Assembly (NCBI GenBank): GCA_040757085.1
Contig: JBFLXJ010000002.1
Span: 124,001-188,000 of the forward strand
DNA length: 64,000 nucleotides
From: Bacillota bacterium
GTDB taxonomy: Bacteria; Bacillota; Sulfobacillia; JACIYH01
Reading direction: 5' to 3'
A model generated the notes under the pieces. That model was not told the DNA's origin and did no database searches. It saw only the letters and a list, made by a program, of their open reading frames with translations. Below are positions 28,529 through 48,399 of this stretch, one piece after another; the stretch's first letter is position 1; each line of letters begins with the position of its first letter. Made by a program: the position numbers and the translations under genes.

Positions 28529-29539
28529 TCAGGCGAGGTGGCAGGCCACCTCGTGCCCGGGTTCGACGGGGCGCAGGGCCGGGACCTCGGCCCGGCAAAT
28601 GTCGCGGGCGTGGGGGCAGCGGGTCCAGAAGCGACATCCCGGCGGCGGTGCAGAAGGATCCGGCACGTCCCCCTCCAGAGGAGCACCCAGGCTGCGTTTC
28701 TTGGGATCCGGCGCCGGAACCGCATTGATCAGGGCCCCGGTGTACGGATGGAGGGGCCGGCCCAGTACCTTCTCGACCGGTCCTGTCTCCACCATCACCC
28801 CCAGGTACATGACCCCCACGTTATCGCACATGTGTTCCACCACGCCGATATCGTGGGAGATGAGCAGATAAGACAGTCCCAGGCGGGCCTGCAGGTCCGA
28901 GAGCAGATTCAATACCTGGGCCTGCACCGATACATCCAGAGAACTGGTGGGCTCATCCAGTACCACCAGTGAGGGATCGAGGGCGAGGGCCCTCGCCACC
29001 CCCACCCGCTGACGCTGGCCTCCGCTCATCTCGTGCGGGTAGCGGCTCAGGAATTCCGCAGGAAGTCCCACCAGGGCGCACAGTTCCTCCACCCTGCGAC
29101 GCAATTCCCTGCACGACAGTCGCATGTGGGCCCGCAGGGGCTCGGCCACGATGTCCATAACGCGCAGGCGCGGGTCCAGGGACCAGTAAGGATCCTGGAA
29201 AACTATCTGCATGTGCCGGCGCATGCGCCGCAGGTCTTCACCCCGAAGGGAAGTGATATCGTGGCCGTCGAAGACCACGCTTCCGCCCGTGGGTTCCACC
29301 AGGCGCAGGATGGTGCGGGCCAGAGTACTCTTGCCGCAACCTGATTCCCCCACTATGCCGAGGGATTCCCCCCGCCTCCGCACCGTCAGGCTGACCCCGT
29401 CTACCGCTCGCACCCAACCCGTCACCCGGCGGAGTACCCCCGTCCTGATGGGGAAGTACTTCTTCAACCCTCGCACCTCAAGAAGGGGGGTTTCCTTGCC
29501 GCCGGCCACGCCCAGCCCCAACGGCAGCCCGGTGCTCAT
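28529..29539 (-). CDS. oppF: Oligopeptide-type ABC transporter ATP-binding protein OppF/DppF
   Basis: 336 aa from the ATG at 29539, which overlaps the oppD stop (ATGA arrangement); the longer open frame upstream is inside oppD. Walker [16 protein letters not shown], signature [16 protein letters not shown], Walker [13 protein letters not shown], and the C-terminal oligopeptide-permease segment with Cys residues ([14 protein letters not shown]) that in relatives binds an iron-sulphur cluster. Energises uptake with OppD. Last gene of the PucR-linked cluster. Confidence 0.93.
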
Positions 29540-30558
29540 GCGGTCACCTCCCCTGCAAAGTGGCAGGCCACCGCCCGGCCGGCGTGTGCGTGCAGCCGCG
29601 GCCGCTCGTGCCGGCATACTTCCCGGGCCGCGGGGCAACGCGGGGCGAAACGGCATCCCCGGGGCAGGCGCAGGGCGCTGGGGACCTCCCCGTGGATCAC
29701 CTGCAGCCTGCCCTTGCTCCCCCGGCGAGGAATGGCCGCCAGCAGCAGGCGGGTATAGGGGTGGGCCGGGTGGTAGAAGATGTCCTCTACCGGTCCCCAC
29801 TCCACCACATCCCCCGCATACATCACGGCCACGTTCTGGGCAATCTGGGCCACCACCCCCAGGTTGTGGGTGATAAAGATGACTGCCGCCCCCACCTCGC
29901 GCCTGAGATCCACCAGCAGGCGCAGAATCTGGGCCTGGATGGTGACGTCCAGGGCGGTGGTGGGTTCGTCGGCTATGAGCAGGGAGGGGCGGCAGGAAAG
30001 GGCCATGGCGATCATCACCCGCTGGCGCATGCCCCCGCTCAGTTCGTGGGGATACATGGACAGGACAGCCTCCGGCCGGGGCAGGCGCACCAGGCGGAAC
30101 ACCTCGATAGCGCGCTGGCGCGCCTCCCGAGCCGTCACCCCCTGGTGCAGGCGAATGGCCCGCACCATGGCATCGCCCACGGGAAAAACCGGGTTGAACG
30201 AGGACATGGGATCCTGGAACACCATGGATATCTCCTTGCCCCTGACCCGGTCCATCTCCCGCTCGCTCTTGCTCAGCAGGTCCTCCCCCCGGAAAATGAT
30301 ACTGCCCGAGACCACGGCCTTGCCCGGCGGTAGCAGCCGCAGGATGGCGCGGGCGGTCACCGACTTGCCACACCCCGTCTCTCCCACCAGGGCCAGCGTC
30401 TCCCCCGTCTGCAAGGACAGGTACTGCAGGTCAACCGCCTGTACGGTGCCGCCGTAAACGCGGAAACCCACCTTCAGATCCCGGATGGACATGAGCTCGC
30501 TGGCCAGGGTCTCATCCGTTGCCGCAGGTGCACCAGGTGCCGTGAGGAACCGCTCCAA
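29536..30558 (-). CDS. oppD: Oligopeptide-type ABC transporter ATP-binding protein OppD/DppD
   Basis: About 340 aa. Walker [16 protein letters not shown], signature [16 protein letters not shown], Walker [17 protein letters not shown] and a C-terminal Cys cluster ([14 protein letters not shown]). A TTG at 30558 with GGGAGG 10 nt upstream is chosen because the in-frame ATG at 30492 has no ribosome site and would cut the usual N-terminus; the ATG remains possible. Begins 6 nt after oppC. Confidence 0.9.
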
Positions 30559-30563
30559 GCAGG

Positions 30564-31478
30564 CTACGCCTCCCGTGTGCGGGGATCGGAAATCTCCCTG
30601 ATCCCGTCTCCCACCAGGTTGAATGCCAGCACGGCCACGAATATGGCCAGGCCGGGGAAAGTAACGTACCACCACTGGTTGAGGAAGAAGTTGCGCCCGA
30701 TGCTCACCAGCAGCCCCCACTCGGGCGTAGGGGGCTGCGCCCCCATCCCCAGGAACCCTAAAGACGCCGCGGTGAGGATCACCCCGCCGAAGTCCATGGA
30801 AGCCTGCACCACCACCGGAGCCATGGTGTTGGGCAGGATGTGCCGCCAGATAACCACCCAGGGCTTGACCCCCGCCGCGCGGGCGGCTTCCACGAACCCC
30901 CGCTCCCTGACCGACAGGGCCTGGGCCCGGATGAGGCGGCTGTACCAGGGCCACCACGCTATGCCGATAGAAATCATGACGTTGGTCAGGCTGGGACCCA
31001 GCATGGCGCATATGGCCACGGACAGTAACAAGGGCGGAAAGCTCATGAACACGTCGCACACCCGCATGAGCACCTCGTCCACCGTTCCCCCGAAGAACCC
31101 CGCCGCCAGCCCGACGGGCACCCCGATGAGCAGCGCCAGCCCGATGGCAATGACCCCCACAGTCAGGGATATGCGGGACCCAAACAGTACCCGGCTGAAC
31201 AGGTCACGCCCCAGTTCGTCCGTGCCAAACGGGTGCTCCCGGCTGGGCGGAAGCAGTGCCCTCTCCGGATGCACGTCGGCGCCGGCATCCCCTGGATAGG
31301 GCGCCAGCCAGGGGGCGGCCAGCGCCACGAGGATAAGCAGCAGCACCACCGCCGTACCGGCTACCGTCAGGCGGTTGCGCCGGAAAAGGTACCACGTATA
31401 GCCGACCCCCGCCCTCCTGCGCTCTTGACTATTGTGATCCGGGGTGGCGTCCAGAGTGCGCGTTGCCTCGTCGCTCAT
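30564..31478 (-). CDS. oppC: Oligopeptide-type ABC permease OppC/DppC
   Basis: 304 aa from the ATG at 31478, five nt after GGAGGG and one base into the oppB stop region. An N-terminal extension with one helix (FRRNRLTVAGTAVVLLLILVAL, in part), then a five-helix BPD_transp_1 domain with the EAA loop (RGFVEAARAAGVKPWVVIWRHILPN, in part). Forms the channel with OppB. Confidence 0.92.
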   Translation of the reverse strand: MSDEATRTLDATPDHNSQERRRAGVGYTWYLFRRNRLTVAGTAVVLLLILVALAAPWLAPYPGDAGADVHPERALLPPSREHPFGTDELGRDLFSRVLFGSRISLTVGVIAIGLALLIGVPVGLAAGFFGGTVDEVLMRVCDVFMSFPPLLLSVAICAMLGPSLTNVMISIGIAWWPWYSRLIRAQALSVRERGFVEAARAAGVKPWVVIWRHILPNTMAPVVVQASMDFGGVILTAASLGFLGMGAQPPTPEWGLLVSIGRNFFLNQWWYVTFPGLAIFVAVLAFNLVGDGIREISDPRTREA

Positions 31479-31479
31479 G

Positions 31480-32499
31480 TCATCCCTCCAGCCGGATGCG
31501 CGGATCGAGCCAGGCCAGGATGAGGTCCACCACCAGGTTGACAATCACGTAGGTACATGCCACCACGATGGTGACTCCCATGATGGCGGGGTAGTCCGCC
31601 GAGAGGATGGACTGGGAAGCGTACTGCCCCAACCCCGGCCAGTTGAAGACGCTTTCCACCAGGAACGTCTCCGCCAGGGAATACGCGAAGGTGAGCCCCA
31701 GCACGGTAATGGTGGGCCCCAGCGCGTTCTTGAGGGCGTACCGGTAATACACCACCGAGCGCGGGATGCCGTACGCCCGTGGCACCACGATGTACTCCTC
31801 GCTCATCACCTCGAGCAGAGACGAGCGGGTCATCCTGGTGATGAGCCCCAGGGGGTATGCGGCCATGGTGACGGCCGGCAGCACCATGTGGCTGAGGGCG
31901 TTGCTGAATACCGGCCAGTTACCGGTAAGGAGGGAGTCCAGCAAATACGACCCGGTGATGCGGTGAATGGGATAGGTGAGCCGCACCACGGTGTCCACCC
32001 GGCCCCCCAGGGGTAGAATCCCAAGGTAGCCGAAAAAGAGCAATTGCAGCAGCATGGCCAGCCAGAAGGTGGGCACCGAAACCGCCCCGATGGACAGCAG
32101 CCGGGCACCGTGATCGGGCAGCTTATCCTTGCGGGTGGCGGAAAGGATGCCCATCGGCACCCCCACCACCACGGCGATCAACATGCCGCTCAGTATGAGC
32201 TCCAGCGAGGCGGGCAGGAAGGCGCGAATATCCGCGATGACCGGACGGTGGGTGCGGATGGACCTGCCCCACTCCCCCCGCAACAGGTCCCCCATGTAGC
32301 GCAGGTATTGCACGTACAGCGGCTTGTCCAGGCCCAGCTCTACCCGGGCGCGGGCAATCTGCTCCGCGGTGGGGTGGCCTCCCACCCAGCGCGCCGCGGG
32401 GTCGGAGGGGATGACCCTGGCGATGAAGAAGGTCACCAGCGTCACCCCAAACAATACCACAACTCCCAGCAGCAGCCTGCGAACGACGTACGCTCTCAA
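31480..32499 (-). CDS. oppB: Oligopeptide-type ABC permease OppB/DppB
   Basis: 339 aa, TTG start. Typical DppB N-terminus (YVVRRLLLGVVVLFGVTLVTFFI), a periplasmic loop with PSDPAARWVGGHPT, six helices and an EAA loop (YGIPRSVVYYRYALKNALGP). First permease gene of the cluster, 55 nt downstream of the racemase gene. Confidence 0.92.
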   Translation of the reverse strand: MRAYVVRRLLLGVVVLFGVTLVTFFIARVIPSDPAARWVGGHPTAEQIARARVELGLDKPLYVQYLRYMGDLLRGEWGRSIRTHRPVIADIRAFLPASLELILSGMLIAVVVGVPMGILSATRKDKLPDHGARLLSIGAVSVPTFWLAMLLQLLFFGYLGILPLGGRVDTVVRLTYPIHRITGSYLLDSLLTGNWPVFSNALSHMVLPAVTMAAYPLGLITRMTRSSLLEVMSEEYIVVPRAYGIPRSVVYYRYALKNALGPTITVLGLTFAYSLAETFLVESVFNWPGLGQYASQSILSADYPAIMGVTIVVACTYVIVNLVVDLILAWLDPRIRLEG

Positions 32500-32554: not shown

Positions 32555-34072
32555 TCATCTCTTCCGCCAAGGCCTCGCCCTCCCCACCAAGTCGGCCAGG
32601 TTAAGAGCTACGGCCAATGGCTCCAGGACGGGTACATCCAGCTTCTGGGCTACCGCGCCGGCCATCTTCGCCATCGCACCGCAGCCCAGGACAATCACCT
32701 CCGCCCCAGCCCGTCCTACCAGATTCCGGGCTTCCGAAACGATTGCTTCCGCCGTGACGGCCTCGTCGCTGGAAAGTTCGAGGACCCCTATGTCGATCCC
32801 CACCGCACCCGCCAGCCGTTGGGTCAACCCCATCTCCCTGACCTGCAGCTCGGTCCAGGGGCCGGCGTTCCGCCCCGTCGATACCACCCCGAAGCGGTGC
32901 CCCAGCAGCAGAGCCAGTCTGCAGCTGGCCTCTGCCAGGCCAAGGGCAGGTCTGCCGGTGGACTCCCGCAGGGCCCGCACGGCCGGGTCGGCGAAGCAGT
33001 TAACCACACTGACGTCGAAAGCCCCCTCCTCACCGCGCGCTGCCCGCACCACACCGGGACGGGCACATGCCTCCTGGTAAAAGGTTTCTATACAGGGCGG
33101 CCCTTCGGTGATGTCCTTCACGTGTACCCTGGTCCAGGGCGGCAACACGGTGTGAGCATATTCCGGTACCCATGATAGCAGGCCGGGCGAGACTACCGGA
33201 TTGACCAGCAAAACATCTACGGGATCAGGATCCCCGCCGATCCTGCCCCCAGGGCCACCCGTGAACACCCCTGCTTGCTCCCCAGGCCCGCTGGTACCTT
33301 CAGCGCCGTAACCCTGGATCCTCCCAACCGGCGGCTCCCGGTAAGGGGCATACAGGCCCCCCCGGAAATGGGACAGTCCCAGCCTGACCAGGACCTGGGC
33401 GGCGCGGAAGGCAAGGGCCATCGGTTCCAGCACCACCAGCCCCATCCCCTCCAGCACGGCGGCCACCCTGGGGGCAAGCGGGGCCAGGCCGGTGCAGCCC
33501 AGCACCATCACCTGGGCGTTGGCCTCCTCGTGGGCGCGCAAGGCGGCCCGCACCGTGCACTCCACCGTGCGGTCGGGCTGGCGTTCCAAATCCGCCACCG
33601 CCACGCCCAGGGGGTAAATGCCGCCCACCATCCCCTCCAGGCCCAGGCGACGCAAGTAACGGCGGAACATGACCGCGGCATTCTCGTCGGGAGCCAGCAC
33701 CGCCACCCCTTCCCCGAAAAGGGGAGCCAGGGCCAGGGCCGTCTCGCCTGCACCCAGCACCGGACAGGCGAGGAGTTCGCGGCCAGGGGCCAGGCCGGGG
33801 TCAGCGCAGCAGTTGATGACCACGGCGTCATAGACGTCTCTGCCCGGGCCCCGTTCCGGTGCCCGGCCCGCCTCCGCCAGGACGTCCAGCAACGCCGCTA
33901 CCCCGTACTCGGCCTCCACTAGCCTGGTCTCCGTGTCCACCGCCGGGGGCCCGTACGTCAGGCTGGCCACCCGTACCTCGTCCCCGGGTGCAACGAGGGA
34001 GCGGAGGTATGCCTCGTCCTGGGCGTCCCAGGTGTCCGTCCCCACGGGATTGACAAAAAGGTACCTAGCCAC
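32555..34072 (-). CDS. Tandem Asp/Glu/hydantoin racemase-like fusion protein
   Basis: 505 aa from a GTG at 34072 (GGGGGG 6 nt upstream). Two homologous racemase domains in one chain: the first (about 1-245) begins RYLFVNPVGTDTWD and has VVINCCADPG and VLGCTGLAPLAPRV; the second (about 280-500) begins VLLVNPVVSPGLLSW and has VVNCFADPAVRAL and VLGCGAMAKMAGAV. Both cysteines of the two-base mechanism are kept in each half. Family members racemise hydantoins, Asp or Glu, or act on maleate. Fusion of two copies is unusual; these enzymes normally work as homodimers. Inferred role: racemising the imported compound or its cyclic derivative. Confidence 0.83.
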   Translation of the reverse strand: MARYLFVNPVGTDTWDAQDEAYLRSLVAPGDEVRVASLTYGPPAVDTETRLVEAEYGVAALLDVLAEAGRAPERGPGRDVYDAVVINCCADPGLAPGRELLACPVLGAGETALALAPLFGEGVAVLAPDENAAVMFRRYLRRLGLEGMVGGIYPLGVAVADLERQPDRTVECTVRAALRAHEEANAQVMVLGCTGLAPLAPRVAAVLEGMGLVVLEPMALAFRAAQVLVRLGLSHFRGGLYAPYREPPVGRIQGYGAEGTSGPGEQAGVFTGGPGGRIGGDPDPVDVLLVNPVVSPGLLSWVPEYAHTVLPPWTRVHVKDITEGPPCIETFYQEACARPGVVRAARGEEGAFDVSVVNCFADPAVRALRESTGRPALGLAEASCRLALLLGHRFGVVSTGRNAGPWTELQVREMGLTQRLAGAVGIDIGVLELSSDEAVTAEAIVSEARNLVGRAGAEVIVLGCGAMAKMAGAVAQKLDVPVLEPLAVALNLADLVGRARPWRKR

Positions 34073-34110
34073 ACTCGTCCCCCCAGTACCGGCCCCTCCC
34101 CGGCCTTGCG

Positions 34111-35094
34111 TCACCCTGCCCGCTCACGCCACCCGGACATCCCGGCCAGCACTCCGTCGCGCAGGATGACCTCCCCGTCCAGGAAAAGGGTAGGTGTCAT
34201 GATGATGCCGTCGACGTGCAGGGGAACCTGCACGTGCCCGCCCATGCTGGCGTTGTCCCCGAAGGCCACGTGAACCGTACCCAGGACTTTTTCGTCCTCG
34301 AGCACGTTCCCGCTCACCGTGGCCAGGTCGTTGGTGCCGATCCCCAGTTCCGCCAGGTTGGCAGCTCCCTCTCCCACCTCTTCCAGCAGCCGCCTCAGTT
34401 CCGCGGCCACCCGGCCGCCCTCGATCCGCACCGCGCGGCCACCTTCCAGCCATATCCGCACGGGTTGGTCCACCCGCTCGTCCAGCAGAGATCCATCGAT
34501 CACCACCACACCCTCGGCCGTGCCCTCCACCGGGGCGATGTAGGCCTCTCCGGCGGGCAGGTTCCCGAAGCTCCCGGGGGTCAGGTAAAGCCCGGTGTCG
34601 GCATGACCCACCCGCCCGGCCAGGGACATGGTGACGTCGGTACCACCGGCACTCACGATGCGCGCCCTCCCCGCCCGGGTGAGGAGGTCGGCCAGCACCG
34701 TCGCCCGCCGGGCCACCAGGTGGTAGTCGGCGGGGAGCACCCTGGCCATCATATCCGCCGTTATCCCCGGCATGGAGGCGACGCGGGCCCCGCGCGCACA
34801 GGCCTCCCGTCGGGCGGAAGTGTGGGACAGGGAAAAGGTGGTGGGCATCACCACCACGTGGGCGTGCGCCATGGCAGCGGCCACCGCGGGGGGTGGTTCC
34901 TCCCCGTCCCGGTTGCGCACCTCCATGAGCACCAGGACCGGCTCCGCACCCATTTCCCGGGCGGCCAGCCGAAATGCCTCCCCCAATTCGCGGCGGGGCG
35001 CGTCGCAGACCACCGCCACCACCTCGCCCGGCTTCACCCCCAGGCACACCTGCAGGGCGCGGCGAGCTCCTGCCATTACGTCCCCCGCATCCAT
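34111..35094 (-). CDS. M29-type aminopeptidase-like protein (COG2309), copy B
   Basis: 327 aa from the ATG at 35094; upstream in-frame codons lie within the previous gene. Matches the M29/AmpS superfamily: VKPGEVVAVVCDAP near the start, SGNVLEDEKVLGTVHVAFGDN and the HVDGI metal-ligand pair (His, Asp) near the C-terminus. M29 enzymes are two-metal aminopeptidases, but the superfamily also holds the iron dioxygenase NicX, so peptidase activity is not certain. 6 nt from the paralogous gene upstream. Confidence 0.75.
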   Translation of the reverse strand: MDAGDVMAGARRALQVCLGVKPGEVVAVVCDAPRRELGEAFRLAAREMGAEPVLVLMEVRNRDGEEPPPAVAAAMAHAHVVVMPTTFSLSHTSARREACARGARVASMPGITADMMARVLPADYHLVARRATVLADLLTRAGRARIVSAGGTDVTMSLAGRVGHADTGLYLTPGSFGNLPAGEAYIAPVEGTAEGVVVIDGSLLDERVDQPVRIWLEGGRAVRIEGGRVAAELRRLLEEVGEGAANLAELGIGTNDLATVSGNVLEDEKVLGTVHVAFGDNASMGGHVQVPLHVDGIIMTPTLFLDGEVILRDGVLAGMSGWRERAG

Positions 35095-35099
35095 ATCCC

Positions 35100-36155
35100 T
35101 CACCCGCCCCGCGCGGCTCTGGCCAGATCCTCCAGTTCCGGGCCCACCACCCGGCCCCGGTCCAGGATCTGGACCCCATCCAGCCACACGGACGAATTGA
35201 GGCATATGCCGTCGCAGTGCGAGGCGGCCCGGATGCCGTCGGGCGGGACATCAATGGGGCTCATGTAACCGATGCCCCACTCCGTGCACCCCCACACCCG
35301 CTCGTCTTCCAGTACGTTTCCCGTGAGCCTGGCCCCAGGATTAAACCCGTAGCAGACGTGGCCGAGCCGGAACATATTGGGGTCCCGGAAGGATTCCAGC
35401 CAGGCCCGGAACTCCTCCGCCTGGGGGCCACCCGTGATGGAGACTATGCGCCCCTCCCGTACCTCCAGGAAAATCGGCGCCTTGAGGATGCCCAGGGGCG
35501 GGCACAGTGACCCGTCGAACACGATGGTTCCTTCCACCGTTTCCAGCCGGGGGGACCAGCCCACCTGCCCGGCCAGCATCCACACCCCGGGGGTAGACGC
35601 GTCTCCCCAGTCACAACTGATGGAGTGGTCCGGCCCCACGTTCTGGAATGACACCTCCGTGCCGGCAGGGGTGGTGATGCGAACGTGGGTGGCCCGGGAG
35701 GTCAGGTCGCGGACCTTCTCCAGGAAGCGACGCAGGGCGGCCATGTCCACGCGACCGATGGCCCTCACCATGAGGTCCGCAGTCATGCCGCACAGGCACA
35801 GGTAGCGCAGTTCCGGGTTGGCGGCCGTAGCATGCTCGTAGACCCCCGAATACAGCAGCCACTGGTGGTTGTACTCCACCCAGACCCGGGAGGATGCCAC
35901 CGCCCGGGCCAGAGCTTCTACGGGAAGGTCGGGGTCGGCCGCCTTACCCACCCCGCGGGGAGTCGCCACTTTCAGGACCAGGGGCTTGCCCCCCGAATCC
36001 AGCACCGCCGCGGCCGTGGCCCGCACCACTTCCTCGTCACTCAGCGTGTCCGCCGTGATTGCCACCACTTCCCCCGGCTTGACCCGCAGGGACTCCCGTA
36101 CCAGCTTCCCGGCGGCCGCGCTCAACTCAAATTCGTAGGCGCCCATCGGCATCAC
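35100..36155 (-). CDS. M29-type aminopeptidase-like protein (COG2309), copy A
   Basis: 351 aa. Same family as the next gene: LRVKPGEVVAITADTLSDEE, PPLGILKAPIFLEV, NVLEDERVWGCTEWGIGY and HCDGI with the His-x-Asp pair. GTG and ATG starts at 36155, 36152 and 36146 are equally close. It overlaps the upstream DUF917 gene by 29 bp. The two paralogues may form a heteromer or act on successive intermediates; the substrate is unknown. Confidence 0.75.
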   Translation of the reverse strand: MMPMGAYEFELSAAAGKLVRESLRVKPGEVVAITADTLSDEEVVRATAAAVLDSGGKPLVLKVATPRGVGKAADPDLPVEALARAVASSRVWVEYNHQWLLYSGVYEHATAANPELRYLCLCGMTADLMVRAIGRVDMAALRRFLEKVRDLTSRATHVRITTPAGTEVSFQNVGPDHSISCDWGDASTPGVWMLAGQVGWSPRLETVEGTIVFDGSLCPPLGILKAPIFLEVREGRIVSITGGPQAEEFRAWLESFRDPNMFRLGHVCYGFNPGARLTGNVLEDERVWGCTEWGIGYMSPIDVPPDGIRAASHCDGICLNSSVWLDGVQILDRGRVVGPELEDLARAARGG

Positions 36156-37317
36156 CCATCCTCGCGTCGGCCATCTCTCCCAAGCCGTGACACCGGCACA
36201 GCTCCTCCACCGGCACGTATGCGGCCTCGAGCCCCAGGTACCGCGGTCCCAGCACCTCCAGCCCCCGGGCCGTACGCCACTTGCCCGGGGCGGGGAACAC
36301 TACCACTGCCACCTCCCTGCCAGCCGGGATGGCGGGGTTCAGCACGGGCTGGCCGTCCTCCTCCCCCAGCAGGGATATGAGGTCGGGGATCGTGGCCACC
36401 ACGGTCCCATCCAGCCGGGCCACCATGTGCTCGTTGCGGAACGTCACCTCCAGTGTTCTTCCCTGGTAGGGCCCGGAGCCCGCCACCGCCACCTCACCTT
36501 CCGTCAGGCCCCCCGCGATCCGGAAGGTGCTGTCCGCCACCACCGCGCCCCGGAATATAACCATGCCTCCGCCGGCCCGGGCGGCAGCCGTGGCCGGGTC
36601 CATCCCCCCGCTCCTGGCCGCCCGCAGGGCGGCCCCTACCGCCCGGGCTCTGCTCAGCGTCCCCGCCAGGAGTGACTGCCTGGCCACTGCCGCCGGCACC
36701 GGGTGGTCGGCCACCCCGGCCCGGTTACCACTGGCCACCGCGAAAGCCCGGGCTATGGCCTCGGCCCGGAAGTCATCAGCCACCTTCTCCACGATGGCCA
36801 CGTCGCCGGACCCGCTGGCCAGAGCCAGCGGGGCGATGGGCACACCATCCAGGTAGAACGTGGAATGGTACAGCTCGGGCACCGCCCTTCCCGCCGGGTC
36901 GGCGTCCACGACGGGCCTCCCCATGGCCCAGGCCACGGCCAGGGCAGCCGCCGTGTTCCCACCCCCCAACTCCGTCGGCACCACGCCGGCGATGGGGTGG
37001 CCCAGGAATCTCTCCAGGGCACGCACGGCCACCAGGGGCTCGTAGCTTTCCGAAACCGGGCCGTCCCCGGGGGTACCCGCCTCCGCTGTATCTGCCTCCC
37101 CACCTTGGGCGGGGGCGACGGCACCCACGAAATACGGGCAGGCCAGCAGGTCGCCGTCGGCGAGTTCGTCCAGGTCCACCATCCACACCGGGCCGAACTG
37201 CCGGTAACACCTGCGCGCCAGGGCAAGGCCGCTCTCCAGGTGGCCCCCACCACCCGTGGCCAGGACGGCACAGCCCACCAGCAGATCTTCTACTTCTTCC
37301 CACTGCAGTTCACGCAC
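36127..37317 (-). CDS. DUF917 protein (S-methyl-thiohydantoin desulfurase-like), copy B
   Basis: 396 aa from a GTG at 37317 (GGGGGGAG 4 nt upstream). Starts LQWEEVEDLLVGCAVLATGGGG, and has the GVVPTELGGGNTAAALAVAW, DADPAGRAVPELYHSTFYLDG and PDLISLL segments of PF06032. The family was long only DUF917 and is now linked to thiohydantoin desulfuration and grouped with hydantoinase/oxoprolinase-like enzymes. Paralogous to the gene just upstream. Confidence 0.82.
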   Translation of the reverse strand: MRELQWEEVEDLLVGCAVLATGGGGHLESGLALARRCYRQFGPVWMVDLDELADGDLLACPYFVGAVAPAQGGEADTAEAGTPGDGPVSESYEPLVAVRALERFLGHPIAGVVPTELGGGNTAAALAVAWAMGRPVVDADPAGRAVPELYHSTFYLDGVPIAPLALASGSGDVAIVEKVADDFRAEAIARAFAVASGNRAGVADHPVPAAVARQSLLAGTLSRARAVGAALRAARSGGMDPATAAARAGGGMVIFRGAVVADSTFRIAGGLTEGEVAVAGSGPYQGRTLEVTFRNEHMVARLDGTVVATIPDLISLLGEEDGQPVLNPAIPAGREVAVVVFPAPGKWRTARGLEVLGPRYLGLEAAYVPVEELCRCHGLGEMADARMGDADGRLRI

Positions 37318-37359
37318 GAATCTCCCCCCAGCCGGCGTACCCACCGGGCAGCCGTACCC

Positions 37360-38478
37360 CTACCCCTGCCGGGCGAACCGGCCGGGATCCCAGTCCACGT
37401 CGAACCCGAAGAAGCGGGGAACCAGGATGCCCAGCCCCCGCTCGTTGAGCCACTCCCGGGGAGCGGGGAATCCGACCACCGCCACCTCCGTCCCCGCCGG
37501 AGCATGAGGATTGAGGATCGGGCTGCCGTCTTCCTGGCGGAGCACGCAAATGAGATCGGGGACGGTGACGTCCACGTGCCCGTCCTTCCAGGAGATGATG
37601 TTCTCGTTCTTGAACCAGATCCGGTACCTGCTACCCGCCCAAGCGCCGGTACCCTCGAGTTCCATCTCCCCGAACAGGAAACCCTCCCTGTCTTCCCAGC
37701 GGGGATCGGTGCGCACCACACCTCGGAACAGGAGTTCCCCTCCCCCGGTCCGCACCACCGCCTCCACGGGATCCCGGCCCGCCTCCCAGGCTTCGCGCCG
37801 CGCCCGTCCCACCGCCAGGGCCCGCGTCAGTGCCCCCGGGATCACCCCGCCCGCCCGCAACTGCCCCACCCGGGCGGGGTGATCCGCCGTAGCCACCATC
37901 CCCCCGCTGGCCACGGCGACGGCCCGCACCAGGTCTTCCGCCCGGAAATCGTCCACCACCCGCTCAATGACCATGGGCTCCCCGAAATCGGTGCACAGGG
38001 CCAGCGGGTAGATAGGCAGCCCCTGCAGGTAGTACGTGGAGAACTGCAGGTCGGGAACAGCCCGCCCCGCGGCATCGGCGTCCAGCAGGGGAATCCCCGC
38101 CCGGGCGGCCACGGCCATCCCCACCGCCGTGTTAAGCCCGCCGTACTCAATGGACACCAGGGCAGTAAACGGACGGCCCAGGTGCCGCTCCAGGGCGCGC
38201 ATGGCCAGGTATGCGGGCGGCTCTTGGGGCCGTGGCAACCGGGCGAAACGGGCAGATGCCTCCGGGCTTTTGGGGGCCGTGGAACCCGTGAAGTACACCG
38301 AGCACGTAGAGGCGTCATCCGGCAACTCCTGTGGCGAGGCCAACCAGAATACCCGTCCCGCCTCGTGCTCGCGCCGCACCATCTCCCACCCCAGGGAGGG
38401 ATCTCCCCCGCCGCCGGTGGCGAGCAGGGCACAACCATCCAGCACGTCCCTGGCTTCCTGGATCTCCAGCTTGCGCAA
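37360..38478 (-). CDS. DUF917 protein (S-methyl-thiohydantoin desulfurase-like), copy A
   Basis: 372 aa, TTG start behind GGGGGTGG. IQEARDVLDGCALLATGGGGDP, LVSIEYGGLNTAVGMAVAAR, LLDADAAGRAVPDLQFSTYY and VPDLICVLRQEDGSPILN align with the second copy. Both copies keep the Gly-rich N-loop and the DADxAGRAVP motif, so both look functional. It follows the binding-protein gene by 21 nt. Confidence 0.82.
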   Translation of the reverse strand: MRKLEIQEARDVLDGCALLATGGGGDPSLGWEMVRREHEAGRVFWLASPQELPDDASTCSVYFTGSTAPKSPEASARFARLPRPQEPPAYLAMRALERHLGRPFTALVSIEYGGLNTAVGMAVAARAGIPLLDADAAGRAVPDLQFSTYYLQGLPIYPLALCTDFGEPMVIERVVDDFRAEDLVRAVAVASGGMVATADHPARVGQLRAGGVIPGALTRALAVGRARREAWEAGRDPVEAVVRTGGGELLFRGVVRTDPRWEDREGFLFGEMELEGTGAWAGSRYRIWFKNENIISWKDGHVDVTVPDLICVLRQEDGSPILNPHAPAGTEVAVVGFPAPREWLNERGLGILVPRFFGFDVDWDPGRFARQG

Positions 38479-38499: not shown

Positions 38500-40083
38500 C
38501 TACTTTGCCTCCTCGCGATAACAGTCGTACCACCACACCACGTGCGGATAGGCCGGGTTGTCTACGAAGCCTTTCAGCGACGCCGCCACGGGCCGCACGT
38601 ACTCCAGGTCGTAAAGGAACAGGGCAGCTGCGTCTTCCACCAGGATCTTCTGCGCCTGCACGTACTTGGCGATGGCCTGTTGCCGGTCGATGCCGGAAAC
38701 CCGGCGCCCCTCCTCGATGAGCCGGTCGTACTCGGGATTCTTGTAGTAGCTCAGGTTGAAGACGATTTCGGGCTCGGAGTGGAAGAGGTTGACCAGGAAG
38801 CTGTACGGATCGGCGTAATCAGGCCACCAGTAAAAGAGGAAGATGTCCTGACGCTTCTGGGGGTCCGGATTCTTGGCGAGTTCCCACTGCTGCTCCCAGT
38901 TCATGACCCGGATGTCCAGACCGATGCCGAGCTCGGCGAAGGAGGCCTTCATGAGTTCCGCCACCCTGCGCTCCTGGTCGTCCCCGCTGGTGTACGTAAG
39001 CGTCAGCTTCAACCCGCCCTTGCCGTAGCCGGCTTTGTCCAGCAGGGCACGGGCCTTGGCCGGGTCGTACGTGTACTGGGGCACTTCCTCGGAGTAGCCC
39101 CACAACCCCTTGGGCACTGGCCCCCGGGCCTGGGAGGCGTAACCGAGCATGACCGTGGAGATGATGTCCCGGTAAGGCACGGCGTACGAGATGGCCCGCC
39201 GGACATCCGGGTTGTTCAGCGGCTTCTTCTCCGTATTCAGCATCCCCAGGAGGTTCTGGAAGGAGGGAGTCACCACCACCTTGACCTTGGGATTCTTCTG
39301 CAGGTCGGCGATTTGATCCAGGGGAAGCTGGTTGGTGTAGTCAGCCTGTCCCGCCTCGATCATCTGCCGGCGCGTGGTAGGTTCGGTAACCTGCTTGAAC
39401 ACCACCTTGTCGAAGTGCTTACCTTCCCACCCTCCCCAGTAGTCGGGGAACTTGGTGAGCACCAGGTCCCCGGCCTTCTCGTAGCTCTCCAGCATGTAAG
39501 GACCCGTGCCCGCTTCATGCCCGGCCGCGAACCAATCCTCCCCATGCTCCTTCACCGCCTGGGGGTCGAATATATGGGCTCCGTACCCCGAAGAAACGAC
39601 CAGGTCAAGCGGAGCCGGGTACTTCAGCTTAAACACCACCGTGTACTGGTCGGGCACCTCTATCCTGTCGACGGAATCCCATATGAAGGACGCCCCCTTC
39701 CCCCGCTGGATGGTGCGTTCGATGGAGTACTTCACGGCATGGGCGTCCATGGCATTGCCGGTGTGGAACTTCACACCCTTGCGGATGTGGAACGTCCATT
39801 CCAGCCCGTCCGGAGAATGGGAATAGTCTGTGGCCAGTACCGGGGTGAACTTTCCAGCGATGGGGTCGTAGCGGAGCAGGGTCTCGTACATGTTGTTCAT
39901 GGCGATGATCTCGTTGGAGAAGCTGTCGCTCGGGTCCCAGAACACCATGACCTCGCTCGAGTTGGCGTAGACCGCGACCTGGGGTTTGGCCGGCTGCTGG
40001 GCCGGCTTGCTGCAGGCGGCCAGCAGGGAAACCGCCACAATCGCCACCAGCAGTAGGCCTAACCTACCTTTCCGCCCGTTCAT
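38500..40083 (-). CDS. ABC transporter solute-binding lipoprotein, SBP_bac_5 (Opp/Dpp) family
   Basis: 527 aa from the ATG at 40083. Lipoprotein signal (LGLLLVAIVAVSLLAAC, lipobox LAAC), then the large two-lobed family 5 binding protein: LRYDPIAGKFTPVLATDYS, FHIRKGVKFHTGNAMDAHAVKYSIER (in part), GTGPYMLESYE, NNPDVRRAISYAV. Captures the substrate for OppBCDF encoded at the other end of the same cluster. First gene after the divergent PucR regulator. Confidence 0.92.
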   Translation of the reverse strand: MNGRKGRLGLLLVAIVAVSLLAACSKPAQQPAKPQVAVYANSSEVMVFWDPSDSFSNEIIAMNNMYETLLRYDPIAGKFTPVLATDYSHSPDGLEWTFHIRKGVKFHTGNAMDAHAVKYSIERTIQRGKGASFIWDSVDRIEVPDQYTVVFKLKYPAPLDLVVSSGYGAHIFDPQAVKEHGEDWFAAGHEAGTGPYMLESYEKAGDLVLTKFPDYWGGWEGKHFDKVVFKQVTEPTTRRQMIEAGQADYTNQLPLDQIADLQKNPKVKVVVTPSFQNLLGMLNTEKKPLNNPDVRRAISYAVPYRDIISTVMLGYASQARGPVPKGLWGYSEEVPQYTYDPAKARALLDKAGYGKGGLKLTLTYTSGDDQERRVAELMKASFAELGIGLDIRVMNWEQQWELAKNPDPQKRQDIFLFYWWPDYADPYSFLVNLFHSEPEIVFNLSYYKNPEYDRLIEEGRRVSGIDRQQAIAKYVQAQKILVEDAAALFLYDLEYVRPVAASLKGFVDNPAYPHVVWWYDCYREEAK

Positions 40084-40401
40084 CCCTGTCCCCCCTTTGC
40101 TTACACGTGGCCGGGCCCACACCCTGGCCCGGCTCACTCCGGGTGTCCTGTGCTCCCCCGCTCACACGCCCGGGTCCACCGCGTGGGCCGGCTTTCTCCT
40201 GGTACCGGGGCAAGTGCCAGTACCGCAGCTCCGGACGGGGCAACACCGCAGCCCGTTTTGGTGGGCGAGTGTTCTGCAGCCGCGCCTGGCATCCTGCCGT
40301 ACTGGGTCTCCCTTTTGCACCAAAAATGGGTCATTGCTTTGTCCGATATACACAGGAAAATACCACCGGCAGCGCGAAATCACCCTCAGGGGGGAGTGGC
40401 C
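40084..40401. promoter_or_regulatory. Divergent control region between the binding-protein operon and pucR
   Basis: 318 nt without a gene. Holds a hairpin CCGGGCC/GGCCCGG (40111-40117 with 40126-40132) near the binding-protein start, an A/T-richer tract around 40310-40360 with GATATACA, a plausible -10, and the AGGGGGG site of pucR at 40389-40394. The 10-mer GTCCGATATA (40341-40350) recurs at 3071-3080 in another promoter region. No -35 box could be fixed. Confidence 0.4.
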
Positions 40402-41737: not shown

Positions 41738-43075
41738 TCAGGCCGCCGATGCGGCAGCCATAGCATCGCCCAGCACACTCAGCCCTTCCTCAAGCTGCTC
41801 GTCGCTGATCACCAGCGGCGGCAGGAAGCGCAGCACATTCCCGTAGCGACCCGCCTTGAGCAGGATCAGCCCGTGCTCATAGGCATACTGGATGATGGTC
41901 GCCGTCTCCGCCGTAGCCGGCTCCTTCGTCTGCCGGTCCTTCACCAGTTCCATCGCCACCATGGCACCCAGCCCCCGCACGTCACCCACCAGCGGGTAGC
42001 GCACCTGCAGGTCACGGCAGAATCCCGCAATGCGCTCTCCCACCTGCTGCGCACGCGCGAGGAAGCCGGGCTCCTCCACGATCTGGAGCACCTTCAGGGC
42101 AGCCGCGCAGGCCAGGGGATTGCCACCGTAAGTTCCCCCGATGCCACCCTTGTGCACGGAGTCCATGATCTCGGTCTTGCCAATCACCCCCGCCAGCGGC
42201 AAACCCGCCGCAATCGACTTGGCCACCAGCAGGATGTCAGGCTCAATACCCTCATGCTCCACCGCAAACAGCTTCCCCGTACGACCAAAACCCGTCTGCA
42301 CCTCGTCGGCAACGAACACGATCCCGTACTTCTCACATATCTCCTTCAGCCCCCGCAGGTAGCCCGGAGGTGGCACAATGAATCCACCCTCCCCCTGCAC
42401 CGGCTCCACCACCAGCGCCGCCACGTTCCGACCGCCCACCCGGTCCTCCAGGGCATCCTCAAACGCCCGCAGGCAGTACAGCCCACAGCCAGGATGCGAC
42501 CTGCCATAGGCACAACGGTAACAGTACGCATACGGGAACCGGTACACCTCGGGGGCAAAGGGCCCGAACCCGTCCTTGTAGGGCATAAGGTGGCTGGTCA
42601 GGGTCATGCCAAGCAGGGTGCGTCCGTGGAAGGCGTCATCGAAGCACACCACCGCCTGCCGGCCCGTGGCCCTCCGGGCAATCTTCACCCCGTTCTCCAC
42701 CGCCTCCGCCCCGCTGTTGACGAACATGACCTTCTTGGGGCTGGAACCGGGCGCGACATGTGCCAGCGCTTCCGCCAGGTCCACATAGGACGCATACCCC
42801 ACCACCATAAAGCAGGTGTGAAGAAAACGCCCCGCCTGCTGCCGCACCGCCTCCACCACCGGAGGCGGGCAGTGCCCGGCGTTCACCACCGCGATGCCGC
42901 CCGCAAAGTCGATGAACACGTTGCCGTCCACATCTTCCAGCACGGCGCCCGCAGCCCGCTCCACGAACAGGGGCGTAGCCATGGACACCCCCTGCGGGAC
43001 AAAACGGGCCCGCTTCTGGAGCAACTCCCCGGTGCGGGGTCCCGGTACAGGGGTGCTGATCCGGATGGTGCCCAT
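41738..43075 (-). CDS. gabT: 4-Aminobutyrate aminotransferase-like class III aminotransferase
   Basis: 445 aa from the ATG at 43075. Follows bacterial GABA aminotransferases closely: RGVSMATPLFVERA-like start (here VPQGVSMATPLFVERAAGA), FIDFAGGIAVVNAGHCPP, VNSGAEAVENGVKIAR, FHGRTLLGMTLT, EPVQGEGGFIVPP, VADEVQTGFGRTG, and the PLP Lys in LLVAKSIAAGLPLAGV. Transfers the amino group of GABA (or delta-aminovalerate) to 2-oxoglutarate, giving succinate semialdehyde and glutamate. Last gene of the sigma-54 operon, directly after the AOR gene. Confidence 0.88.
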   Translation of the reverse strand: MGTIRISTPVPGPRTGELLQKRARFVPQGVSMATPLFVERAAGAVLEDVDGNVFIDFAGGIAVVNAGHCPPPVVEAVRQQAGRFLHTCFMVVGYASYVDLAEALAHVAPGSSPKKVMFVNSGAEAVENGVKIARRATGRQAVVCFDDAFHGRTLLGMTLTSHLMPYKDGFGPFAPEVYRFPYAYCYRCAYGRSHPGCGLYCLRAFEDALEDRVGGRNVAALVVEPVQGEGGFIVPPPGYLRGLKEICEKYGIVFVADEVQTGFGRTGKLFAVEHEGIEPDILLVAKSIAAGLPLAGVIGKTEIMDSVHKGGIGGTYGGNPLACAAALKVLQIVEEPGFLARAQQVGERIAGFCRDLQVRYPLVGDVRGLGAMVAMELVKDRQTKEPATAETATIIQYAYEHGLILLKAGRYGNVLRFLPPLVISDEQLEEGLSVLGDAMAAASAA

Positions 43076-43076
43076 C

Positions 43077-44930
43077 CTACATTCCCCCCAGCCCAAGCTG
43101 GGCAAGCTTTGCCGGGGTCGGTACCCCGTCCTCGTCCCAGCCACGCAGCCGATAGTACTCGTCCAGCATGGAAGTAAAGACCTCGGGCGGTAGCACCTTG
43201 CCCGCAGCAGGCCCCTCCGGGAGCGGCTCGCGCAGGACGCGCCCGGGCAGGTAGTCGTGCTCGCGCCGGAACCCTTCCCGCACGTTGAGCAGCCGGCCCA
43301 GGTTCCAGATGCGCTCTCCGGCCAGGCGCAGCTCGCCGGGCGTCACCTCCCGGCCCAGCGCCACCGTGCAGAATCCGGCCATAAGATCCAGGCTCAGCGC
43401 CCAGAAGTCACAAAAGATCAGGGAAAACTTGATGGAGTTCTGGTCCTGACCCCGAATCACCAGTTGCGCCTTGCCTTCCCCGGTGAAGGGGTCAAGCCCT
43501 CCAAACGCCTCGTCCGCCACCGGCCAGGCCCGCATGTGGCAGGCACCCCGGTCGGCGGTGGCGTAAGCCAGTCCCATCCCCCAGGAGCCCCGCGGTTCGT
43601 ACCCGGGGAATTCCAGGCCCTTGACCTCCATCGCGAATTCCCTGCCGCCGTACCGCCCGGCCAGGTACCGCACCCCCCGGCCAAGTTCCTTGCCCGCTCC
43701 CTCGCCCCGGGCAATGAGCACAGGCGCCCGCAGGTACGACTCCACGTCGCCAAAGCGCAGGCCCAGGTCGACCAGGTCACGCTGCTGAAGTTCCATGGCG
43801 AACGCCACCACCCCGCCCGTGGAGATGGTGTCCAGCCCCAGGTCGTCACACAGCCGGTTGAACTCGATGATGGCCTCCAGGTCCCCAATGCCGCAGTTGG
43901 AACCGGTCAGGGCGAGGGTCTCGTACTCGGGCCCCTCCACCGCCCCCTCACCCGGCCAGGCCTTCGCTCCGGCATCCGGACGGTTTGCACCCGCGGCCCC
44001 CGCAACCTGCCGAGTCACGCGCAGGAAGTTCCCGCAACCCAGGCCGCAGCCGAAGCAGGACTTCTTCGCCACCCGGCGTGCCCGCACCGCATCGGCTCCG
44101 ATGGCCTCGGCACCCGGGAACGTACCCCCCTGGAAGTTGCGGGTGGGAAGGATCCCCGCCGACTGGGAAAGCCCCACGATCATGGGGGTACCGTCCGTGT
44201 AGGCCCACAGGTTGGTGTCGGTGAGCAGGTCATCCCGCATGGCCCGGTAGGCAAATTCCAGGAAACGCCCCATGTCGGGAGCCGCCACCGACCCCGTCCC
44301 CCGCACCGCCACCGCCTTCAGCCGCTTGGATCCCATCACCGCCCCCACACCGCCCCGGCCCGCCTGCCGGTACAGTTCCGAGGTCAAGCAGGCCAGCGGC
44401 ACCAGGTTCTCACCCGCCGGCCCGGTCGACATGATGCAAAACCCCTCACCCAGGGCATCGCGCAGGACAAACTCGGTCTCGTGGCACCCCTTGCCCCACA
44501 GGTCGTCCGCTTCCCGGAACCACACCCGGTCGCCATCGATCACCAGCACCACGGGACGCGGAGCCTGCCCCGTGATCACCACCAGGTCGTACCCGGCGTA
44601 CTTCAACCGCGCCGCCACCGTGCCCCCCACCGAGCAGTCCAGGATGGTCCCCGTGGCCGGCGACCTGGTCACCACGCCCAGCTTCCCCGTGCAGGGGGCC
44701 AGCGTCCCCGTGAGGGGCCCCGTCACAAAAAGCAGCGCATTCCCGGGAGAAAGGGGATCCGTCCCCGCGGGCACGGCGTCATAGAAGTACCGGAACCCCA
44801 GGCCCTTGCCACCGAAGAACAGACGGGCCCACTCCCGGTTAAGGGGCTCCGCCCAACTGCTCAGGGCCCCCAGATCCACCCTCAGCACCTTTCCCGCATA
44901 CGTGTCCCGACCGGCACCCGGCTCAGCCAC
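43077..44930 (-). CDS. Aldehyde:ferredoxin oxidoreductase (tungsten/molybdopterin AOR family)
   Basis: 617 aa, complete, GTG start behind GAGGAGGTG. The three-domain AOR fold is evident: N-terminal GKVLRVDLG, FFGGKGLGFRYFYD; bis-pterin-binding AGRGGVGAVMGSKRLKAVAVRG; the 4Fe-4S ligands C292, C295, C299 (CFGCGLGCG) and C507 (LIFCDFW), spaced as in Pyrococcus AOR. Oxidises an aldehyde to the acid and reduces ferredoxin. Between two aminotransferases that make and use amino-aldehydes, 4-aminobutanal (or succinate semialdehyde) is the likely substrate. Overlaps the ferredoxin gene by 8 bp. Confidence 0.93.
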   Translation of the reverse strand: MAEPGAGRDTYAGKVLRVDLGALSSWAEPLNREWARLFFGGKGLGFRYFYDAVPAGTDPLSPGNALLFVTGPLTGTLAPCTGKLGVVTRSPATGTILDCSVGGTVAARLKYAGYDLVVITGQAPRPVVLVIDGDRVWFREADDLWGKGCHETEFVLRDALGEGFCIMSTGPAGENLVPLACLTSELYRQAGRGGVGAVMGSKRLKAVAVRGTGSVAAPDMGRFLEFAYRAMRDDLLTDTNLWAYTDGTPMIVGLSQSAGILPTRNFQGGTFPGAEAIGADAVRARRVAKKSCFGCGLGCGNFLRVTRQVAGAAGANRPDAGAKAWPGEGAVEGPEYETLALTGSNCGIGDLEAIIEFNRLCDDLGLDTISTGGVVAFAMELQQRDLVDLGLRFGDVESYLRAPVLIARGEGAGKELGRGVRYLAGRYGGREFAMEVKGLEFPGYEPRGSWGMGLAYATADRGACHMRAWPVADEAFGGLDPFTGEGKAQLVIRGQDQNSIKFSLIFCDFWALSLDLMAGFCTVALGREVTPGELRLAGERIWNLGRLLNVREGFRREHDYLPGRVLREPLPEGPAAGKVLPPEVFTSMLDEYYRLRGWDEDGVPTPAKLAQLGLGGM

Positions 44931-45363
44931 GTCGGATCACCTCCTCCACCGCCTGCCCCAGAGAAAGCGCGCCCACCGGACACCACATCACGCAGGCCGG
45001 GCCGCCCTCGCGGCCGTCACATCCGTCGCACAGCCGCACGGGATCGCTGACGATGACGTGCCGGGGACACTCCTCGACGCACAGGCCGCACTCCGTGCAC
45101 AGCTCCCGCTCCAGGTGGAGGTGACCGTCCCGCAGGCTGATGGCTCCCGTGGGACACACCTCCCGGCAGGTAAGGCACCCGTCACAGGCCGAAAACTTCA
45201 CCTCCGGGCCCGCGTACGTGTAAGGCTTCTCCACCCGCAGGGTGGCCCGGAGGGGGTTGAACACCCCCTCCCGGGCCGCGCTGCAAGCCAGGAGGCACAT
45301 CTGACAACCGGTGCACTTCGACCCGTCAATGGACAGAACCGCTACCGGTCTCATGATCATCAC
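44923..45363 (-). CDS. Polyferredoxin (four 4Fe-4S clusters), electron partner of AOR
   Basis: 146 aa with four Cys groups: CTGCQMCLLAC (about 17-27), CDGCLTCREVCP (about 60-71), CTECGLCVEECP (about 89-100) and CDGCDGREGGPACVMWCP (about 112-129). This HycB/DMSO-reductase-B-like arrangement is the small subunit often encoded beside AOR homologues. It would carry electrons from aldehyde oxidation to soluble ferredoxin, a hydrogenase or a membrane complex. Start ATG at 45363 overlaps the aminotransferase stop; ATG at 45354 is equally possible. Confidence 0.9.
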   Translation of the reverse strand: MMIMRPVAVLSIDGSKCTGCQMCLLACSAAREGVFNPLRATLRVEKPYTYAGPEVKFSACDGCLTCREVCPTGAISLRDGHLHLERELCTECGLCVEECPRHVIVSDPVRLCDGCDGREGGPACVMWCPVGALSLGQAVEEVIRRG

Positions 45364-46715: not shown

Positions 46716-46725
46716 ACATCCCTCC

Positions 46726-48333: not shown

Positions 48334-48380
48334 CCCTCGGCCTCCCTTCGCGTTCATTTGCCTGGTTCCACGCAGCATGA

Positions 48381-48399
48381 CTTGCAAGAATCATGCCAA
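48381..48399 (-). promoter_or_regulatory. Sigma-54 promoter of the symporter-aminotransferase-AOR operon
   Basis: The minus strand reads TTGGCATGATTCTTGCA with GG at 48397-48396 and GC at 48385-48384, the exact GG-N10-GC spacing of sigma-54 (-24/-12) promoters. Transcription would start near 48372, giving a leader of about 40 nt before the symporter start. The window encodes two sigma-54 activators. Confidence 0.8.

Follow-up and report, generated by a model that had tools for sequence, protein, structure and literature searches.

Two diverged racemase domains fused in one chain within a recurring peptide-uptake cassette of a Sulfobacillia bacterium

A fused racemase gene and its neighbors

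The window, that is, the whole stretch of 64,000 nucleotides that was analyzed, holds on its minus strand a ten-gene cassette (Table 1). In the direction of the minus strand, the order is solute-binding protein, DUF917 proteins 1 and 2, M29-like proteins a and b, the fused racemase, permeases B and C, and ATPases D and F.

Table 1. Coordinates of the cassette genes and of the parts of the fused racemase in the window
Feature	Position	Strand	Remarks
Extracellular solute-binding protein, family 5 (oligopeptide type)	38500..40137	-	
DUF917 / S-Me-THD-like protein 1	37360..38478	-	
DUF917 / S-Me-THD-like protein 2	36127..37344	-	
M29/NicX-like protein a	35100..36155	-	HxD and Glu kept; no Pfam match; start uncertain
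M29/NicX-like protein b	34111..35205	-	Glu, His and HxD metal-ligand-like residues kept; ORF start uncertain
Fused racemase	32555..34114	-	519 aa (505 aa from the 34072 start): N domain, disordered linker, C domain
N domain (RN type)	33290..34072	-	aa 15-275; catalytic-type Cys102 (33809-33811) and Cys207 (33494-33496)
Linker	33233..33361	-	aa 252-294, pLDDT under 50
C domain (RC type)	32555..33244	-	aa 291-519 and stop; catalytic-type Cys373 (32996-32998) and Cys478 (32681-32683)
Opp/Dpp-type permease B	31480..32499	-	
Opp/Dpp-type permease C	30564..31544	-	Start uncertain
Opp/Dpp-type ATPase D	29536..30501	-	End of a longer ORF; start approximate
Opp/Dpp-type ATPase F	28529..29500	-	End of a longer ORF; start approximate

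The racemase gene is one stop-free ORF that ends at 32555, and its first GTG, at 34114, overlaps the stop codon of the upstream gene as GTGA (34111-34114). A second, internal GTG, from which the earlier note counted, lies at 34072 with a GGGGGGA stretch ahead of it, and either codon may be the start. The product matches Pfam family PF01177 twice, with a whole-protein score of 217.9 bits against a cut-off of 31 and, in the genome search, separate matches of 140.3 bits for the C half and 89.3 bits for the N half. Both cysteine motifs are present in each half, NCCADPG (C102) and LGCTG (C207) in the N half and NCFADPA (C373) and LGCGA (C478) in the C half, and all four cysteines align with those of solved allantoin/hydantoin racemases. 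Each half therefore belongs to the PF01177 superfamily by 1) a domain over the curated cut-off, 2) a matching fold, and 3) two catalytic-type cysteines, and the protein departs from the single-domain chain, often a homodimer, that is usual but not obligatory in the superfamily, in having two such domains in 519 aa. An earlier note, made from the DNA letters, had claimed two racemase domains with four catalytic cysteines in one chain; the single ORF, the double PF01177 match, and the alignment of the cysteines to solved relatives bear this out.

The flanking genes encode a complete Opp/Dpp ABC importer, with a family 5 solute-binding protein, two BPD permeases, and two ATPases with oligo_HPY according to Pfam. 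The DUF917 / S-Me-THD-like proteins were assigned by their PF06032 and PF20906 domains. In NCBIfam, DUF917 protein 2 comes closest to two thiohydantoin equivalogs, which it matches with 77 and 72 bits against cut-offs of 450 and 440; with scores so far below the cut-offs, we rejected its identity as an S-methyl-thiohydantoin or thiohydantoin desulfurase, and literature searches found no paper on these thiohydantoin enzymes. The sole significant structure match of a DUF917 model (pLDDT 92.7) is the uncharacterized 2o3i, so that the fold points to no mechanism, and a caprolactamase match with an E of 0.25 was not taken as evidence. Both M29-like proteins keep Glu, His, and HxD residues, which we take to be metal ligands. 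The Pfam M29 cut-off is reached by protein b only, and the only solved relative found for either is NicX, which is a dioxygenase and not a peptidase. Among the ten cassette genes, there is no cyclodipeptide oxidase or synthase and, in the Pfam search, no hydantoinase or carbamoylase. Transcriptionally upstream on the same strand (41738-48387) lie two class-III aminotransferases, an aldehyde:ferredoxin oxidoreductase, and a sodium:solute symporter, which suggests amino acid fermentation.

Recurrence of the cassette and origin of the fusion

We used the window proteins as queries in a census of 72 loci (L039-L104 and L115-L120), which had been picked for a racemase match, so that the counts are not prevalences. 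Many of these loci are cut by contig ends, three pairs lie on the same contig (L043/L053, L054/L115, and L056/L118), and 68 of the 72 gave hits, whereas four lacked any that reached 40 bits. The combination of three or more importer genes with a DUF917 gene, an M29-like gene, and two or more racemases is present in 15 loci, 14 of them distinct since L043 and L053 share a contig. Among these are L054 and L116 from the same phylum, L058 from Bipolaricaulota (with no ATPase genes in reach), and two archaeal MAG contigs of Thermoproteota, from Ignisphaera (L059) and Desulfurococcaceae (L071). The number of racemases varies, with a single one in some cassette relatives (L055, L061, and L065, for example) and three to four in L044, L054, L058, and L116; at L054:4913-12567 and at L116:4040-16432, two of the four PF01177 genes are direct neighbors. 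Another gene lies between racemases in L054 and L071. These findings show that the fused racemase belongs to a recurring uptake-plus-hydrolase cassette, with an Opp/Dpp importer, two DUF917 proteins, two M29/NicX-like proteins, and two racemases.

Two other arrangements of PF01177 genes came up in the census. Adjacent PF01177-like gene pairs occur in three genomes that belong to one family, f21 (L049:6713-8363, L050:11198-12851, and L051:7339-8992); their five aligned rows lack both catalytic cysteines, with T/N and E/G there, and nothing nearby matches the other cassette proteins of the window. In ten Thorarchaeota loci (L070, L072, L073, L075, L077-L079, L081, L085, and L095), one PF01177 racemase lies close behind a DUF917 gene, and all seven rows that reach position 12 (see below) have Thr there.

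Within the class, 10 of 154 genomes have the RN/RC pair, fused or separate, a count that concerns this pair and leaves aside other PF01177 genes. The fused form is found in three (G000, G031, and G035, the last much diverged and 488 aa long), and adjoining separate RN and RC genes in seven (G001, G005, G027, G029, G037, G038, and G039; the RC gene of G029 is truncated at a contig end). G031, from the same genus, has a full-length fused gene with 94% identity, in a locus that has no second DUF917 gene, and the presence of the same full-length fusion there argues against a sequencing artifact. A 4-nt RTGA overlap between the N-type stop and the C-type start is compatible with five of the seven separate pairs, with start codons picked to fit the alignment; for G005, translation has to begin at the second of two GTG codons, because the first, two codons earlier, would give 10 nt. 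The two genes are 24 nt apart in G027 and 3 or 24 nt apart in G029, depending on the start codon. No further fusion was found in 398 genomes drawn from the phylum, with up to three candidates scored per genome.

A contig scan with the whole fused protein as query confirmed no relative, and the match counts of a contig profile scan with the N-type alignment are to be read as "at least" and not as prevalences. A plasmid search matched 346 records, all under 60% identity, and in the best 10 of the 346 the matching stretches are ~0.7-0.8 kb, the length of one domain.

For phylogeny, a set of 80 domains was reduced to 47 by dropping duplicates and short ones, and a later tree left out three duplicates, rows shorter than 170 aa, and hits that did not exceed 30 bits. 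An approximately unbiased (AU) test rejected a single clade of the N and C halves of the window and G031 (p 0.003, for a group named after the tree was seen), which rules out a recent self-duplication of one domain. The tree places the N-type genes of G037, G038, G039, and G001 in one well-supported clade and their C-type genes in another, while the deeper grouping of N type versus C type and the typing of the archaeal pairs are weakly supported. The fused chain thus unites two old paralogs, RN and RC, and does not stem from a fresh tandem duplication. In other genomes of the class, these paralogs are adjoining genes, which makes a secondary origin of the fusion probable. As for G035, its C half groups with the other C halves (98/56), and a single clade of the N halves was not rejected (p 0.375); its fusion may be the same event as that of the window or have a second origin.

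Integrity and pockets of the two halves

The earlier note had named beforehand an outcome that would speak against it, one half being catalytically dead and structurally degenerate. We looked for this in the conservation of the cysteines, the AlphaFold2 fold, structure matches, and dN/dS, and found no such half. Both cysteines are present in all 19 domains aligned (10 N type and 9 C type), which come from those loci of the class that have the pair, separate or fused; the C-type gene of G029 was left out because it is cut by the contig end. An AlphaFold2 model of the fused protein has a mean pLDDT of 82.4 and a pTM of 0.85, with pLDDT under 50 at residues 1-13, 252-294, and 515-519, and was predicted from an alignment with a depth of 10 on the N half and only 3 on the C half. 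Mixed alignments, one of which took 47 of the 75 listed single-domain references plus three fused proteins, were left unfolded because the single-domain rows fell mainly on one half. In VIA-align comparisons, the N half matches allantoin racemase 5lg5_F (Z 31.0, rmsd 2.0, 223 residues) and has Z 29 to 31 with allantoin racemases; the C half matches hydantoin racemase 2eq5_A (Z 24.9, rmsd 2.0, 208 residues), as compared to Z 23.7 for OpaE and 14 to 17 for aspartate and glutamate racemases. The nearest solved relatives of both halves are thus allantoin/hydantoin racemases. Between the window and G031, dN/dS is 0.25 for the N half and 0.34 for the C half, and 0.37 for the linker, where changes are few; these are point estimates from one gene pair (~37 changes in N and 34 in C) given without a significance test. 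The substitutions between these two species point to purifying selection on both domains; with such values, neither half looks dead. Both domains are complete.

The pockets differ between the halves, as judged by residues that separate classes in this family. In one study, Asn/Asp12 (KpAllR numbering) is found in 100% of allantoin/hydantoin racemases, which have Thr/Ser118 and Thr119 in 84% and 56% of cases, while 89% of OpaE-like enzymes have an aliphatic V/I/L at the equivalent of position 12, and NozR-like enzymes have Ile/Val9 (44%), Phe/Leu14 (32%), Thr/Ser114 (79%), and Val/Ile115 (74%) (PMC12661438). Known members of the OpaE-like and NozR-like groups act on cyclic peptide-like compounds. 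In our multiple alignment, each of the 19 domains from paired or fused loci has an aliphatic residue at position 12. The N type has V/L at 12 and W/F at 17 in 10/10, and the C type V at 12 and L/V/M at 17 in 9/9; the window halves read Val/Trp (N) and Val/Leu (C), position 12 having been placed in the C half also by direct alignment to 3qvj and in the N half by the multiple alignment. The Asn/Asp12 of the allantoin/hydantoin subfamily is therefore Val in both halves. At positions 118/119, the N half has A,P and the C half S,T, and these residues appear to fit no one described class. At the NozR-like positions, the C half reads V,L,S,T and the N half V,W,A,P, as carried over through the KpAllR alignment. 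Since many racemases outside the cassette are also aliphatic at position 12, Val12 argues against membership in the allantoin/hydantoin class and does little to single out a substrate.

The earlier claim of two diverged halves that each keep both cysteine motifs is likewise supported, and both domains are apparently active. That note had further suggested that the fused protein may act on two stereochemical forms or on an asymmetric substrate. The second idea fits the differing pocket residues 12/17, while the first is not needed, because a single Cys/Cys domain should already interconvert both forms (PMC10156859 and PMC12661438).

A candidate stereo-inverting enzyme and its alternatives

In the family mechanism, one cysteine removes the alpha proton and the other returns one on the opposite face (PMC12661438 and PMC10156859). 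PMC10156859 describes NozR, a member of this family that interconverts LL, DL, and DD cyclo-Trp-Trp in S. lividans and fails when either cysteine is mutated. Diketopiperazine (DKP) cyclization raises the lability of the proton on carbon alpha for all residues tested except Tyr (PMC8159430). Genes for PF01177 and DUF917 proteins are enriched in cyclodipeptide-oxidase clusters that have no cyclodipeptide synthases, where Opp-type transporters and peptidases are also found, according to a 2024 Nat Commun paper (PMC11055893).

From the fusion and the cassette described above, we infer a function that we propose tentatively: RN and RC may be a heteromeric stereo-inverting enzyme whose substrate is an imported cyclic (di)peptide-like compound. 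The two domains would form an obligate hetero-pseudodimer, in which each would use 1,1-proton transfer between its two cysteines to invert a carbon in alpha position to a ring amide. Their differently shaped pockets could serve the two unlike stereocenters, or the two side chains, of a 2,5-diketopiperazine or closely related ring amide that the importer brings in, and one stereoisomer would thereby become available to the ring-opening and peptide-cleaving enzymes (the DUF917 and M29-like pairs) of the same cassette. An oligopeptide importer together with peptidase-like and ring-amide-type families fits an imported cyclic dipeptide with two unlike stereocenters, and the pairing of enzyme classes in the cassette suggests that labor may be divided over two unlike substrate halves. 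Several observations weigh against this reading: no cyclodipeptide oxidase or synthase is among the ten cassette genes, the M29-like proteins are closest to a dioxygenase, the DUF917 fold points to no mechanism, residues 118/119 differ between the halves, the own genome has a D-hydantoinase-like gene outside the locus, the number of racemases varies among cassette relatives, G031 has no second DUF917 gene at the locus, and the deeper N-type and C-type groupings have weak support. In a broader version, which we regard as doubtful, bacteria and some archaea would have an undescribed cyclic-dipeptide salvage pathway, with paralog pairs behind an oligopeptide importer and an obligately heteromeric DKP stereoisomerase whose subunits are fused here. 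Hyperthermophily as a source of abundant cyclic dipeptides was considered and dropped, with reverse gyrase over the cut-off in 0 of 11 class genomes (the 10 with the RN/RC pair and G030).

Hydantoins are the chief rival to cyclic dipeptides. In a hydantoin-type catabolic cassette, the racemase domains would act on 5-substituted hydantoins, DUF917 would open or modify the ring, and the M29-like proteins would release the amino acid. Thiohydantoin enzymes are indeed the closest NCBIfam models for DUF917 protein 2, albeit with scores far below the cut-offs, the solved structures nearest to both halves are allantoin/hydantoin racemases, and D-hydantoinase (TIGR02033) is over the cut-off in 7 of 11 genomes (the 10 with the pair and G482), the own genome's copy lying elsewhere and not at the locus. 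However, the Asn/Asp12 that PMC12661438 gives for all allantoin/hydantoin racemases is Val in both halves, N-carbamoylase (TIGR01879) is over the cut-off in only 4 of the same 11 genomes and not in the own genome, neither a hydantoinase nor a carbamoylase is among the ten cassette genes by Pfam, and the importer is of the oligopeptide type. We consider this reading unlikely.

A heteromeric enzyme might also have one working half, the other keeping its cysteines as a structural or regulatory partner. Catalysis and structure are often divided between fused or paired paralogs, the N half is the lower match to PF01177 (89 versus 140 bits), and its residues 118/119 are unusual. Nonetheless, both cysteines are kept in 19/19 paired or fused domains, dN/dS is similar in the two halves (0.25 and 0.34), and both are predicted to fold completely, which makes this option quite improbable. 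We give as little credence to a chance read-through of overlapping genes that has no functional meaning, RN and RC being independent racemases with different substrates in one pathway. The apparent 4-nt overlap in five genomes means that a small indel could fuse the genes, the racemases of L054 and L071 are split by another gene, and the 398 phylum genomes, with up to three candidates each, added no fusion; yet the fusion has been kept with low dN/dS in two species of the genus, G035 also has one, and the AlphaFold model predicts one high-pTM assembly (0.85). Finally, a racemase that acts on free Asp or Glu, or on some different linear amino acid, as the Pfam family name would have it, is highly improbable given that the C half has Z 14 to 17 with Asp/Glu racemases versus 24.9 for 2eq5 and 23.7 for OpaE, the N half has Z 29 to 31 with allantoin racemases, and no NCBIfam Asp or Glu racemase model matches at E 0.001 or better.

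Taken together, because RN and RC are separate adjoining genes in relatives and one protein here, within a recurring peptide-uptake cluster, these findings suggest a joint function, perhaps in the recycling of ring-shaped dipeptides. As natural evidence of the Rosetta-stone kind, the fusion indicates that a pair of diverged racemases may work as a single heteromeric enzyme, and the recurring cassette gives context to two poorly characterized families, DUF917 and M29/NicX-like. Should cyclic dipeptides be the substrate, the cassette would allow this by-product of peptide breakdown to be salvaged and would offer testable enzymes for switching its stereochemistry. Neither a fused or heteromeric racemase nor a cassette of this kind came up in the literature searched on hydantoin racemases, DUF917, and cyclic dipeptide degradation, which was covered by titles, abstracts, and passages and included few subscription papers.

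Among known systems, KpAllR (3QVJ), PfAllR (5LFD), and the P. horikoshii enzyme (2EQ5) have the fold and both cysteines in common with both halves. However, solved allantoin/hydantoin racemases are single-domain chains of 200-245 residues with Asn12, whereas the window protein has two diverged domains in one chain with Val in both. The DKP D/L isomerase NozR (PMC10156859) is from the same family and has the Cys dyad and, with positions carried over from KpAllR, an aliphatic position 12, the C half of the fused protein sharing also Leu17; it differs in being encoded by a single gene in a biosynthetic locus, whereas the racemase of the window is paired, in an importer/hydrolase cassette, with Trp17 in the N half. 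The fungal epimerase OpaE (9QBX; PMC12661438) is alike in fold and Cys dyad, and its aliphatic 20 and aromatic 25 have equivalents in the N half by sequence alignment only, but it is a homodimer of one-domain chains, unlike the two domains per chain found here. The cyclodipeptide-oxidase clusters without a synthase (PMC11055893) carry a cyclodipeptide oxidase, in contrast to the ten cassette genes of the window, and bring together PF01177, DUF917, Opp-type transporters, and peptidases as the cassette does.
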